From Marinimicrobium koreense (GTDB lineage: Bacteria; Pseudomonadota; Gammaproteobacteria; Pseudomonadales; Cellvibrionaceae): DNA of 64,000 bases. The stretch is from assembly GCF_003762925.1 (NCBI RefSeq), contig NZ_RJUK01000001.1, forward strand, positions 2,232,001 through 2,296,000, in the 5' to 3' direction. Positions 13,223 through 19,421 of the stretch are shown one piece after another. The notes under the pieces were generated by a model. That model made no database searches, was not told the origin of the DNA, and was given only the letters and a program-made list of their open reading frames with translations. The first letter of the stretch is position 1; the number at the start of each line of letters is the position of its first letter. The translations under genes and the position numbers were made by a program.

Positions 13223-16200
13223 TTATTCGCCGCGTTTTTCCATGTCGTTGAGCAAACCGCTCAGGCTCGCCGCCTTGGGCTTGACCAGCCAGAATTTACC
13301 GACGTAATCATCGAAGTTGTCCAGCAGGTTCTGGCCCCACTCGCTTTCGGTCTCTTCGGTAAATTCCGTGATGACCCGACGCAGGTAGTTGCGGTGCGCT
13401 TCCAGCGATTCGCCATCCACCCGGTGAATGTCCACCAGTTCGTGGTTGTAGCGATCCACAAAGCTGTTGTCCTCATCCAACACGAACGCAAAGCCGCCAG
13501 TCATACCCGCACCGAAGTTCACCCCGGTGCGACCGAGTACGGTCACCACGCCACCGGTCATGTACTCACAGCAGTGGTCACCGGCACCTTCCACGACGAC
13601 GTGAGCACCGGAGTTACGAACGCCGCAGCGCTCGCCCGCCTGACCGGCCGCGAACACCTTACCGCCGGTCGCGCCGTACAGACAGGTGTTACCCATGATG
13701 CTGGTGTCCTGGGACTTGAAGCCGGAGTTGCGCGGTGGGCGCAGCACCAGTTTGCCGCCGGCCATGCCTTTGCCGACGTAGTCGTTGGCATCGCCTTCCA
13801 GGTAAATATACAGGCCACCGGCGTTCCACACACCCAGACTCTGACCGGCCACACCGGTGAGTTTTAGCGTAATGGGCTTATCCGCCATGCCCTGGTTGCC
13901 GTGGCGCTTGGCAATTTCACCGCTGATGCGCGCGCCGATAGAGCGGTCGCAGTTGGTCACGGTAAAGGCGTATTCACCGCCGGATTTGCTCTCAATGGCC
14001 GGCAGCACTTCATTGACCATCGCCTCGGCCAGCTCGCCCTTGTCGAACGGTTCGTTACGATCCACCGCGCACAGCTGCGGCTTGGTTTCCAGGAACTTGT
14101 CGGTGTAAGTGATGCGGCTCAGGTCCAGACGCTTCTGCTTGCTGGTCTGGCCTTCGATCGCTTCGAGCAGGTCGACGCGACCGACCAGATCACCCAGACT
14201 GCGCAGTCCCAGTCGGGCCAACCACTCACGGGTTTCCTCGGCAATAAACTTGAAGAAGTTCATCGCCATTTCAACGGTGCCGATGTAGTGGTTTTCACGC
14301 AGGTCGTCGCGCTGGGTGGCCACACCGGTGGCGCAGTTGTTCAGGTGACAGATCCGCAGGTACTTACAGCCCATGGCCACCATCGGGCCAGTACCGAAGC
14401 CGAAGCTCTCGGCGCCGAGCATGGCCGCCTTGATCACATCCATGCCGGTTTTCAGGCCGCCGTCGGTCTGCACCCGGACCTTGTCGCGCAGATCGTTGGC
14501 GCGCAGGGTCTGGTGGGTTTCACTCAGGCCCAGCTCCCAGGGAGAGCCCGCATAGCGGATGGAGGTCAGCGGGCTGGCCGCGGTACCGCCGTCGTAGCCG
14601 GAAATGGTGATCAGGTCCGCGTAGGCCTTGGCCACACCGGCGGCAATAGTGCCGACGCCGGGACGAGACACCAGCTTGACCGACACCTGGGCGTCCGGGT
14701 TGACCTGCTTGAGGTCAAAGATCAGCTGCGCCAGATCCTCGATGGAGTAAATGTCGTGGTGCGGCGGCGGTGAAATCAGGGTCACACCGGGCACCGAATA
14801 GCGCAGCCGGGCGATCAGATCATTGACCTTGCCACCGGGCAACTGGCCACCCTCCCCGGGCTTGGCGCCCTGGGCAACCTTGATCTGCAGCACTTCGGCA
14901 TTGACCAGGTAGTGCGGGGTCACACCAAAGCGGCCCGAGGCGATTTGCTTGATTTTGGAGACCTTATCGGTGCCAAAACGGGCCGGATCTTCACCACCCT
15001 CGCCGCTGTTGGAGCGGCCACCGAGACGGTTCATGGCCTGCGCCAGACACTCGTGCGCTTCCGGCGACAAGGCCCCGAGGGACATACCGGCGGAGTCAAA
15101 GCGCTTGATGATGGCCTCGATCGGCTCCACTTCGCTCAGTGGAATGGCCTGAGCACTGTCTTCTTTGACTTTCAGCAGGTCGCGCAGCGTCGCCACCGGG
15201 CGCTCATTGACCAGGCTGGAGTAATCGCGCCACAGGCTGTACTCACCGGTCTGCACGGCACGCTGCAGGGTCTGGATCACGTCCGGGTTGAAAGCGTGGT
15301 ATTCCTGACCGTGAACGTATTTGAGAATGCCGCCCTGCACCAGGGGCTTACGCGCCAACCAGGCGGTACTGGCGATGATCTTCTGGTCTTCTTCCAGATC
15401 CGGGAAGCCGGCGCCCTGAATGCGGGACTGAGTACCTTCAAAGCAGGTGTCCACCACTTCATCGGCCAGACCGACTGCCTCAAACAACTGCGCACCGCGG
15501 TAGGAGGTGATGGTGGAGATGCCCATTTTGGACAGAATCTTCAGCAGGCCCTTGTCGACGCCCTTGCGATACCCCTTGTACGCCTGATCGGTATCCAGCT
15601 GCAGTTCGCCGGTTTCCATCAGGTTGTTGAGCACGTAGTAGCTCAGGTACGGGTAAACCGCCGTCGCACCGTAGCCGATCAGTGTTGCGATCTGGTGGGA
15701 GTCGCGGGCCGTGCCGGTTTCCACAATGATGTTAGCGTCACAGCGCAGCCCCACCTTGGTCAGGTGGTGGTGCACCGCGCCGGTGGCCAGCAGGGCGTGG
15801 ATCGGCAGCTGGCCTTTTTCCAGATGGTTGTCGCTCAGTACCAACAGCACCTTGCCCGCCTTCACCTGCTCGGCGGCGTCATCGCACAGCTTGGCGATGG
15901 CCTGCTTGAGGTTGTACTGGGCCGGATCGTAATTGAGCGACAGAACGGTCGCCTCATACCCCGGACGGGGAATATCCATCAGGGCACGGAACTTCGCCGG
16001 TGACAGCACCGGTGAGCGCAGAATCACCCGATCGGCGTGCTCTTCGGTCTCTTCGTAGACCGACAGTTCGCGTCCCAGACAGGTTTCCAGGGACATGACG
16101 ATGGCTTCACGCAGCGGATCAATCGCCGGGTTGGTCACCTGGGCGAACTGCTGGCGGAAATAGTCGTACAGCGGCCGCTGCTTGGCGGACAAGACAGCCA

Positions 16201-17677
16201 TGGGGGTATCGTCACCCATGGAGCCGACCGCTTCCTGGCCGCCCTCGGCGAGCGGACGCAGCACCTGATCACGCTCCTCGAAGGTGACCTGGTACATTTT
16301 CATGTAGGCCTTGAGCTGCTCTTCGGTGAGGCCGTTTTCGGCCACATCGTCTTCCAGAGTGGATTCGATGCGCAGCGCCTTCTCTTTCAGCCACTGCTTG
16401 TAGGGCTGGCGCCCCTTGAGCTGCTCGTCAATGTCCTTGGTGTGGTACAGCTTGCCGGTCTCGGTATCCACCGACAGAATCTGGCCCGGTCCAAGACGGC
16501 CCTTGGCCACCACGTCTTCCGGCTTGTACTTGTACACGCCGACTTCGGAGGCCACGGTGATGATGTCGTCTTTGGTGATCACCCAGCGCGACGGACGCAA
16601 GCCGTTGCGGTCCAGGGTACAGACCGCGTAGCGGCCGTCGGTGATCACCAGGCCCGCCGGGCCATCCCAGGGCTCGACGTGCATGGAGTTGTATTCGTAG
16701 AACGCACGCAACTGCGGATCCATGTGCTCGACATTCTGCCAGGCCGGCGGTACCAGCATGCGCACCGCACGGTGCAGCTCCATGCCGCCGGTGATCAGCA
16801 CTTCGAGCATATTGTCCAGGCTGGAGGAGTCGGACCCATCGCGGTTGACCAGGGGCGCCACGCGATCCAGATCCGGCAGCAGGGGCGTGCTGAACTTGGA
16901 GGTGCGGGCCACGGACCAGTTACGGTTGCCCATCACGGTATTGATTTCACCGTTGTGCGCCAGCATACGGAACGGCTGGGCCAGGGGCCACTGGGGCAGC
17001 GTATTGGTGGAGAAGCGCTGGTGGAACACGCAGATGGCGGTTTCCAGGCGCGGATCCGCCAGGTCGGTAAAGAACTTGGGCAGGTCCACCGGCATCATCA
17101 ACCCTTTATAGGAGATGACCGTGGAGCTGAAACTGGCAATATAGAACGCCTTGTCTTCGGCCAGGCGCTTTTCGGCCTGACGCCGGGCGAGGAACAGCCG
17201 GGCGTTAAACTGCTCGAGACTCAGGTCTCCATCGTTGTTGATAAACAGGTGATTGAAACGCGGCAGTGACTCCAGGGCAATCGGCCCCAGGCAGCTGCTG
17301 TCCACCGGCACCTCGCGCCAGCCCGCCGGGCTGAGCTCCTGAGCGCGCAGCTCCTCCTCAACCACATCGCGGGCCTTCTGGGCCTGGGCATCGTCGGTGC
17401 TGAGCATGATCGAGCCGACGCCGTAAACGTCAGTCAGCTCGGCGCCGCAGGCCTCCTTGGCCACGGTGCGCAGAAAGCCGTCCGGCTTCTGAAGCAGCAG
17501 GCCGCAACCGTCACCGGTCTTGCCGTCCGCCGCGATACCGCCGCGGTGGGTCATGCAGGTCAACGACTCGATGGCGGTTTCCAACAGGCGATGACTGGCC
17601 TTGCCCTTCAAATGGGCAATCAAGCCAAAGCCGCAGTTGTCTTTAAACTCATCTAACCTGTAGAGGCCCGTGGTCAT
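13223..17677 (-). CDS. gltB: Glutamate synthase (NADPH) large subunit
   Basis: Alpha subunit of glutamate synthase, which makes two glutamates from glutamine and 2-oxoglutarate. 1484 residues. The class II amidotransferase nucleophile is Cys15 in [11 protein letters not shown], so the first 14 residues are probably removed. The central and FMN/2-oxoglutarate synthase domains follow, with the [3Fe-4S] cluster region [19 protein letters not shown]. The C-terminal right-handed beta-helix (GXXGXXX repeats such as [21 protein letters not shown]) is complete. The start [18 protein letters not shown] at 17677 is chosen because earlier in-frame codons overlap the leader terminator hairpin. A sigma-70 promoter lies about 100-130 bases upstream. 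Confidence 0.97.
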
Positions 17678-17739
17678 ACGCTGTCTCTCTCGATACCGAT
17701 AGAATCCGGAACATGGCTCGCTCCGCTCACGCCCCAGAC

Positions 17740-17763
17740 AAAAAAGCCCCTCCAAAAAGGGGC
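17740..17763 (-). terminator. Intrinsic-terminator-like hairpin in the gltB leader
   Basis: On the minus strand GCCCCT-TTTTGG-AGGGGC is followed directly by six U residues (17745-17740), a standard intrinsic terminator. It lies only about 12-36 bases after the predicted transcription start of gltB and about 63 bases before its ATG. A second GGGGC (17731-17735) downstream could compete for the left arm, so this may be an attenuator rather than an upstream gene's terminator. Confidence 0.6.
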
Positions 17764-17781
17764 CAGGCAAATGGGCGCAGC

Positions 17782-17810
17782 ATATTACCCGCAAGTGGCC
17801 CCAAAGGCAA
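17782..17810 (-). promoter_or_regulatory. Sigma-70 promoter for gltB
   Basis: On the minus strand: -35 TTGCCT (17810-17805), a spacer of exactly 17 bases, and -10 TAATAT (17787-17782). Transcription would start near 17775, placing the intrinsic-terminator-like hairpin at the very beginning of the transcript. Confidence 0.6.
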
Positions 17811-18179
17811 GACGAGCGGGGCTCTCAGCGCCCAACAGTAAAGCTAATTTCGGCAAAATGGTGGTAAAAAGTCGAAATATTCAGTGATTTTCCGAGAACT
17901 CCCCCGGCTCCAGACAGACTGCCTGAATGACCGCTGAAGCCGGGCCCGTAGCACCGTCCGTCAGAACAGTCAGCAACACGGAGGGCCCACTCGACAAGCT
18001 ACCACAGTTTTCCGAAGATACCTATACGGCCCGAACCGGATAAACGGTCAATTTGAGCGACCTTGCGCATTAGACAGCAATTCCCGGAGCCAGCTAGAAT
18101 GGGGGCTCAGTGACACATTGGGTCGAAAGCAGCCCGGGTGTCAGCAGGAGAAACCAAAATCAAAACATCGGGACTTTGC
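17811..18179. other. Intergenic region between gltB and the lipoprotein gene
   Basis: About 370 bases upstream of both divergent genes, with lower GC between 17830 and 17900. No gene is visible. The promoter of the plus-strand lipoprotein gene should be here, but I cannot identify it confidently. Confidence 0.4.
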
Positions 18180-19421
18180 ATGCAGCTTACACATCTTTCG
18201 GGAAGCTTCCCTCGCGCTTTTTGGCGCATAGGCAAAACCGTCACCCTAACCTTTTTCTCCGTACTGCTTTTCTCAGGTTGCGAATGCGACACGGCGTGCG
18301 ATGAGCGCATAACCGGAGGCTCCGACCCCAATAGCGGCGGCAGCAACGGTAGCAGCAGCTCAAGCGGCGGCACCCCAAACGGTGGTTCGGCCGACGATAT
18401 TGCTTTGAACTGTTCCGAGTTAGACCCGGACACCGTTTATTTGTTGGGCTCGTTCCAGGAGTTCACGGGCGACCGGAGGGTTTTGATCGATCCGGAAGAA
18501 CCAGAAGCACTATGTACGGCGTTTCCGGATGGAGTCGACGGAGGCGCTGTGACCAGTTCGGGCTCTCTGATCTATACCCACCATGGCAACAACGTTACCT
18601 TCGATGGAGGAACCATCTACCAGTTGACTCAGGATCCCCTGACCCTGAGCAGCGATGGATTGGAGTGGACTTACCCGATCAACCCTAACAACAACGACGA
18701 GCAGTTGCTATTTGGCAAATCCACCCAGCTGTTTATCCATCACGATAGCTCTGCCGCCGAGGTCGTTGACATCTACCAGGCGAAACTGGAATCAACCGAC
18801 AAAGTCATATACCGTAACGACGAGTCTGATCCCTACTACACGCTGGAGCGCTCCGATCCATTCGACTCGCAAGTCTACATGCTGGGCGTCACACCTGATG
18901 GCTCGCTGTTGATGGGCGACTCTCAAACAGGCCTCATACTGGTAGACACCGACAGACAACTGACCCGGCTAGATGCTCCCGGCACACCGCCCTACCGCTT
19001 CAAGGAAACATCACGCCTGTTCACGGACTCAGTGACCGGGAGCCCAAGCGTCTGGGTCGTGCTCGAAGAGTTCAACGGCGCTGACACACCCAGCGACTGG
19101 CGTCGGTGGAGCCTGGACCTGACCACCCTGACCGTCAGCGACGACGGCCTGTTTGCCACACCCCCTCAGGACGTGGCGACGGAAACCGACAAGCTGAAGC
19201 TGGACGCTGACGGGGTGCTATGGCAGATCGCCTACAGCCCACTTGATGCCGAGCAGAACCTGACCTCTTACCTTGTGCGCAAACCCACACAGGCCTCGGG
19301 AGAGAGCTCCGCGATCATATACAGTGACGCCTACAACCCTGACGACACACGCTCCTGGAGCCGACAGGAACGTCCGTTCGCGAGAATTGGGCTCATCGGC
19401 GAGCTTGTCACGGCTCCTTAG
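18180..19421 (+). CDS. Hypothetical lipoprotein, lineage-specific
   Basis: 413 residues from the ATG at 18180; a GTG at 18138 in the same frame is the alternative start. The signal peptide (TVTLTFFSVLLFSGC) ends at a lipobox with Cys34. It is followed by a Ser/Gly/Asn-rich linker (GGSDPNSGGSNGSSSSSGG, about residues 46-65), which suggests a tethered domain at the cell envelope. The remaining 340 residues are rich in Asp, Thr and beta-strand-like segments (VYLLGSFQEF, GSLLMGDSQTGLILVDTDRQL) that could form a beta-propeller; this is a guess. I recognise no family. It separates damX from gltB, which are neighbours in Pseudomonas, and it is on the opposite strand to both. The ATG has only a weak ribosome site (GGGA). 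Confidence 0.65.
   Translation: MQLTHLSGSFPRAFWRIGKTVTLTFFSVLLFSGCECDTACDERITGGSDPNSGGSNGSSSSSGGTPNGGSADDIALNCSELDPDTVYLLGSFQEFTGDRRVLIDPEEPEALCTAFPDGVDGGAVTSSGSLIYTHHGNNVTFDGGTIYQLTQDPLTLSSDGLEWTYPINPNNNDEQLLFGKSTQLFIHHDSSAAEVVDIYQAKLESTDKVIYRNDESDPYYTLERSDPFDSQVYMLGVTPDGSLLMGDSQTGLILVDTDRQLTRLDAPGTPPYRFKETSRLFTDSVTGSPSVWVVLEEFNGADTPSDWRRWSLDLTTLTVSDDGLFATPPQDVATETDKLKLDADGVLWQIAYSPLDAEQNLTSYLVRKPTQASGESSAIIYSDAYNPDDTRSWSRQERPFARIGLIGELVTAP

Follow-up and report, generated by a model that had tools for sequence, protein, structure and literature searches.

Transcription attenuation is best known from biosynthetic operons with leader peptides or riboswitches. In the Escherichia coli greA leader, the source of GraL, 19 nt precede the terminator hairpin and about two-thirds of the transcripts stop; autoregulation of GreA and a role of GraL in trans are reported in the same article (PMC6829880). 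The rimP-leader is a short, highly conserved terminator that is the only leader element in most species and lies 4 to 130 nt from the gene, with no visible antiterminator, and the study describing it infers that a protein acts in termination or antitermination (Naville and Gautheret 2010, PMC2965389). In Bacillus subtilis, attenuation of pyrG is prevented by reiterative G addition at the start site (PMC4448216).

The gltB leader of Marinimicrobium koreense, analyzed here in a stretch of 64,000 nt (the window), is best read as a bare attenuator close to its promoter, comparable to the leaders of greA/GraL and rimP. As in greA/GraL, a promoter-proximal intrinsic terminator would have to be read through, which differs from a classical attenuator, and about 12 nt lie ahead of the hairpin here; the gene and the sequence are different, however. 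It shares with the rimP-leader a bare, conserved terminator at a variable distance from the gene, but the rimP-leader stem (GGGc/gCCC) has the opposite polarity to GCCCC/GGGGC at gltB, and the rimP operon encodes NusA, whereas gltB encodes a metabolic enzyme. The pyrG attenuator is likewise a leader terminator, regulated without a riboswitch; unlike pyrG, the predicted gltB start has no G-run.

A known RNA family or riboswitch was rejected because no Rfam match came near its threshold. The window region gave a single match (anti-hemB, 18.1 bits against a cut-off of 49.5), and 11 related leaders gave eight weak matches, all far below the cut-off, including isrK at 21 to 25 bits (cut-off 50) in three leaders of the Microbulbifer type. 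With the rimP-leader model (RF01770), the window region gave nothing at E values of 1 or below, and the 11 leaders gave one match, at 27.8 bits against a cut-off of 47, in L243 on the strand opposite gltB. The searched literature, which included few subscription papers, yielded no paper that describes such a terminator in the gltB leader of these bacteria. The terms "gltB" and "glutamate synthase" are absent from the main text of PMC2965389, and PMC13236596 names both gltB and attenuation, with a gltB passage that concerns knock-down vulnerability and not a gltB attenuator. In genus g106, which belongs to another family of the order, three loci (L251, L252, and L255) show TATAAT, about 15 nt, AAAAGCCCCTCACGTCAGGGGCTTTTTAG, and then the rimP gene, the same bare promoter-terminator layout as in the gltB leader; rimP was identified by RimP_N in L251 and judged by the same frame in L252 and L255.

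Promoter and terminator ahead of gltB

The elements of the leader, all on the minus strand of the window, are as follows.

17805 to 17810, minus strand: −35 element TTGCCT, from sequence and conservation, with TTGC almost invariant in the family
17782 to 17787, minus strand: −10 element TAATAT, from sequence and conservation, with a promoter at the corresponding place in outgroups
17768 to 17780, minus strand: conserved discriminator and transcript start CTGCGCCCATTTG, with the predicted +1 at about 17776-17775
17746 to 17763, minus strand: terminator hairpin GCCCCT-TTTTGG-AGGGGC, about −11 kcal/mol (left arm GCCCCT, 17763-17758; loop TTTTGG, 17757-17752, species-variable in sequence and length; right arm AGGGGC, 17751-17746)
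17740 to 17745, minus strand: terminator U-run TTTTTT, from sequence and conservation
17736 to 17739, minus strand: conserved GTCT abutting the 3′ end of the U-run and fitting the G-10 / Y-1 G+1 pause pattern
17731 to 17735, minus strand: GGGGC segment, which in this genome is predicted to contribute to the 5′ arm of a hairpin further downstream
13223 to 17677, minus strand: gltB, glutamate synthase large subunit (Pfam GATase_2, Glu_syn_central, Glu_synthase, and GXGXG)

The Pfam domains confirm that the downstream gene, named as gltB in an earlier note on this DNA, encodes GltB; its ATG is at 17677-17675. The promoter that the note called near-consensus is present as TTGCCT and TAATAT with a 17-nt spacer, but it matches the consensus at 8 of 12 positions, so that the term is generous, and a promoter scan with a cut-off of 9 of 12 matches does not list the pair. 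From the promoter spacing, transcription is predicted to start near 17776. The hairpin begins about 12 nt past this start, an RNA ending at the terminator would be about 37 nt long, and 62 nt separate the end of the U-run from the ATG. The GCCCCT-TTTTGG-AGGGGC-U6 element described in the earlier note was read on the minus strand right behind the promoter and ahead of gltB and agrees with the family conservation described below. An intrinsic terminator is therefore placed by sequence between the predicted gltB promoter and the start codon.

Judged from the window sequence alone, the leader terminator is within chance expectation, because both the scan count and the fold energy match those of shuffled sequences. 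A terminator scan of the 2.2-kb region lists two sites, which overlap, where shuffled sequences lead one to expect 1.7; for the 41-nt RNA, the folding energy is −13.4 kcal/mol (z of −0.52), a value equaled or bettered by 54 of 200 shuffles. The case for its reality rests on conservation between genomes.

Conservation in the family

By kinship comparison, the family of the window's genome includes Gilvimarinus, Exilibacterium, Pseudoteredinibacter, and Microbulbifer. GltB is present in all 58 genomes of a first set (37 of the family and 21 others of the order). A scan for a hairpin followed by a T-run, which makes no sequence requirement, finds the same GCCCC/GGGGC terminator recurring 5′ of gltB. 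The 58 genomes contain 22 exact copies of the 15-mer GGGGCTTTTTTGTCT, distributed over 21 of the 37 family genomes and missing from the 21 others; 20 of the 22 sites are at gltB, and the remaining 2 are a terminator-like stretch away from gltB. A covariance model built from 14 sequences gave 82 strong hits (at least 41 bits) among the 144 family genomes, never more than one in a genome; 81 of them lie at most 1 kb upstream of gltB on the gltB strand and one lies at a contig end, with gltB opening another contig. No hit of at least 41 bits was found outside the family with this model among 390 genomes of the order. Weak hits (30 to 37 bits) were obtained in 15 order genomes outside the family, and neither the 11 of these that were inspected nor five weak or pattern hits within the family precede a GltB-like frame, in a check that covered the longest frames only.

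Leader conservation in relatives, which the earlier note had named as a check, is broad. Excluding the 48 genomes of genus g4 (the Microbulbifer type) from the 144 leaves 96 family genomes, 93 of which have a GltB match, and a hairpin with a U-run lies upstream of gltB in 81 of these 93. The 81 comprise 74 pattern-aligned sequences, G014, G023 (degenerate, with a bulge), G028, G062, G063, G066, and G083; G078, at a contig break, is outside both tallies. The hairpin is absent in 11 of the 93 (G012, G013, G019, G022, G025, G030, G095, G151, G153, G154, and G155), and it is therefore dispensable in some lineages; other, weaker hairpins appear in scans of some of these genomes. The layout that the earlier note described as that of an attenuator or a very short RNA, with a promoter and then an immediate intrinsic terminator, is thus kept in most of the family.

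Conservation is confined to the element itself. Among 25 genus representatives, the mean pairwise identity is 0.87 for the −35 element, 1.0 for the right arm, and 0.90 for the U-run and GTCT, this last value being inflated in the U-run columns by the choice of rows through a TTTTT-then-TC pattern, against 0.27 for the 30 nt upstream and 0.25 for the 40 nt downstream. The upstream terminator scan and the GGGGCTTTTTTGTCT search are free of this bias. The distance from the end of the motif to the GltB match ranges from 52 to 461 nt across members, and the long ATG spacing in some of them makes a second, downstream promoter possible there. The 141-bp region has no match in plasmid or phage collections and so shows no sign of a mobile element.

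With G023 left out, all five core stem pairs form in 79 of 80 sequences, in a tally that takes the best-pairing window as the left arm and whose rows are related and not independent events. One-sided stem changes that preserve a pair lead to G-U in these 80 sequences, and the loop-adjacent pair is U-A in 65, A-U in 3, G-C in 1, G-U in 2, and nonstandard in 9.

Microbulbifer-type leaders and outgroups

Genus g4 is assigned to the Microbulbifer type because its leaders resemble those of the named records L068, L071, L085, and L087. The 26 sequences of this type are from 22 of the 48 g4 genomes and the four named records, between which overlap is possible. Their leader is longer (about 60 to 120 nt by reading) and carries a similar terminal hairpin and U-run in 26 of 26, and the hairpins are weak, with a median of −5.4 kcal/mol and a score d not above 0 in 5 of the 26. 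In five Microbulbifer genomes the end of the U-run lies 16 to 36 nt from the ATG, which leaves no space for a later promoter, so gltB transcripts must cross the terminator. A block downstream of the terminator, CTGCGGCACCTTTGGCTCGAGAGTAGATAAATATACCCCC, is highly conserved in an alignment of nine Microbulbifer leaders (A3) and may be a second promoter. By eye, an additional 5′ hairpin and, in many sequences, one more hairpin are seen in the Microbulbifer leader.

Outgroups, including Pseudomonas, Marinobacter, Porticoccus, and Spongiibacter, carry TTTGT...TGTAAAAT or a near variant, which resembles a promoter, and then a start similar to CCTTTTGC; the distance to the ATG is about 100 nt in most cases, and we take this sequence to be the same gltB promoter. 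When all groups were scored by one method, a terminator with d above 0 between the −10 element and gltB was found in 71 of the 74 short leaders and 21 of the 26 leaders of the Microbulbifer type but in 0 of 66 outgroup loci. These 66 are what remains of 78 loci once 12 without a promoter-like box are removed, and at least one genome is represented by two of them (L041 and L138). A more permissive scan lists weak hairpins past the promoter in 6 of the 66 outgroup loci and hairpins in 72 of the 74 family members; a scan whose stems run on into the U-run was discarded, since it detects 38 of the 74 and none of the 26. Because the outgroups share the promoter and lack any terminator with d above 0, the terminator appears to be a later addition to an ancient promoter-leader.

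The start segment GCGCCCATTT persists in some family members without the terminator and, in altered form, in the terminator-less outgroups; in G066 and G083 the terminator is retained and the promoter and start sequence have diverged. The parts are therefore conserved separately. Three loci of genus g29 (L011, L226, and the Simiduia record L066) have no terminator; in them the start is followed by a CCGCAGAAACTGC-type stretch, a possible other hairpin with no U-run.

Sequences downstream of the U-run

GTC follows the U-run in 67 of the 74 aligned sequences, whose rows were chosen by a pattern favoring TC, and a scan without the TC requirement mostly shows the same GTC. A G is present at −10 from the end of the U-run in all 74 and an additional G at +1 in 68. 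The elemental pause signal is described as G-10 / Y-1 G+1 (PMC12288461), and since the leader fits this pattern, GTCT would be expected to strengthen pausing at the release point. GTCT was rejected as a general terminator tail of the genome for a 400-kb sample of the window's own genome, where none of the 38 other terminator-like sites with four or more T residues is followed by it. Pairing of GTCT with the Shine-Dalgarno region, or a role as the beginning of a second hairpin, is unsupported by pairing probabilities: the probability of pairing with the next 66 nt is 0.529 versus 0.502 in base-shuffled sequences, with a higher value in 44 of 74, and several sequences with GTCT lack its AGAC partner. 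A second hairpin is predicted right after the U-run in the window's genus (17704-17739, minus strand; GTCTGGGGCGTG / CATGTTCCGGAT), and its bases differ but pair in L003 and mostly do so in L004.

The earlier note had also proposed that the GGGGC segment at 17731-17735 pairs with the left arm and opens the terminator. This antiterminator was rejected on timing and poor conservation. The segment is 3′ of the U-run and cannot open the terminator, because it is still untranscribed when RNA polymerase makes the termination decision. Its position reads GTCTGGAA in G002, of the window's genus, and GTCTCAGG, GTCTTGAA, or GTCTACGG in other relatives; in the window's genome, its predicted pairing partner lies further downstream still. 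No alternative antiterminator or leader peptide fits the approximately 12 nt ahead of the hairpin in the short leader, and a classical two-state attenuator is not claimed for it. An out-of-frame ATG at 17714 opens a 21-codon frame (17649-17714, minus strand) that extends over the gltB start. The corresponding position in L003 is not an ATG, so the frame is unconserved in the genus.

Interpretation and alternative explanations

We assign a probability of about 0.72 to the reading that the element attenuates transcription of gltB in cis from a promoter-proximal position, and probably also that of gltD behind it. RNA polymerase would start at the gltB promoter, transcribe about 37 nt, and reach the GC hairpin and six U residues with a pause-favoring G at the exit; a fraction of the polymerases would stop at the U-run, and the remainder would read through to give gltB mRNA. 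RNA polymerase thus probably has to escape the leader terminator before gltB is expressed. The short leader has no room for a peptide, a riboswitch, or an upstream antiterminator, so the most likely determinant of read-through would be the elongation machinery or a factor acting in trans, in line with the proposals for rimP and greA/GraL. We infer actual termination, its efficiency, and its regulation from the leader sequences, and a fixed, unregulated attenuation would give the same picture. A more specific proposal, which is doubtful at present, is that a bare terminator without an RNA sensor controls gltB across most of the family, that read-through reports the state of RNA polymerase (nucleoside triphosphate pools at the U-run and the following G, or a Nus/Gre-type or dedicated antitermination factor), and that the ~37-nt product may double as a small RNA.

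The terminator might instead be the 3′ end of an upstream aroKB-damX operon that falls beyond the gltB promoter by chance, which we consider quite unlikely. At family loci where damX is the immediate upstream neighbor in the same orientation, the scan of the damX-gltB spacer lists the leader terminator and almost never another, as this explanation would have it; the exception is L017, with a further downstream hairpin, and the spacer scan listed nothing in L015, L016, and L022, though the leader hairpin is present there. However, the nearest long upstream open reading frame is divergent in 10 of 19 loci examined, the window's genome included, in a survey that used open reading frame evidence only and in which L009 and L067 are one genome. 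With a divergent neighbor there is no upstream operon needing a terminator, and yet the terminator is kept behind the gltB promoter; its spacing is also constant to the promoter and not to the damX stop. In some species, it could serve both the damX end and the gltB leader. In the window, the reading frame between damX and gltB (427 amino acids, 18138-19421, plus strand) is divergent from gltB, has no Pfam match and, by eye, a lipoprotein-like N terminus, and in a tblastn search of 46 stretches upstream of gltB it matched only its own genome.

A trans-acting small RNA of about 37 to 45 nt with its own promoter and terminator, with gltB using another promoter, would account for a promoter-RNA-terminator unit that is single copy and conserved, and GraL, from the greA leader, also works in trans (PMC6829880). 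This explanation is nevertheless improbable: the survival of GCGCCCATTT without the terminator argues that it is not kept as the seed of a terminated RNA, the loop and linker vary, the strong hits are all at gltB except the one at a contig end, and short-spacer genomes have no space for a second promoter.

The position of the gltB hairpin, about 12 nt from the predicted 5′ end, would suit an ompA-like 5′ stabilizer, with a role in protecting or shaping the mRNA 5′ end rather than in termination. A stabilizer needs neither the U-run nor GTCT, however, and both are conserved about as well as the stem, which makes it very unlikely that this is the main function.

Implications of the proposed gltB attenuator

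Under the attenuator reading, one family of mostly marine bacteria seems to have acquired a conserved promoter-proximal terminator at glutamate synthase, one of the main routes by which ammonium becomes glutamate. The element is present in Gilvimarinus agarilyticus (L067) and Pseudoteredinibacter isoporae (L070), and a ~37-nt RNA is predicted in cultured genera such as Gilvimarinus and Pseudoteredinibacter. If the terminator is regulated, it would be a compact case of switching a terminator without a visible sensor.
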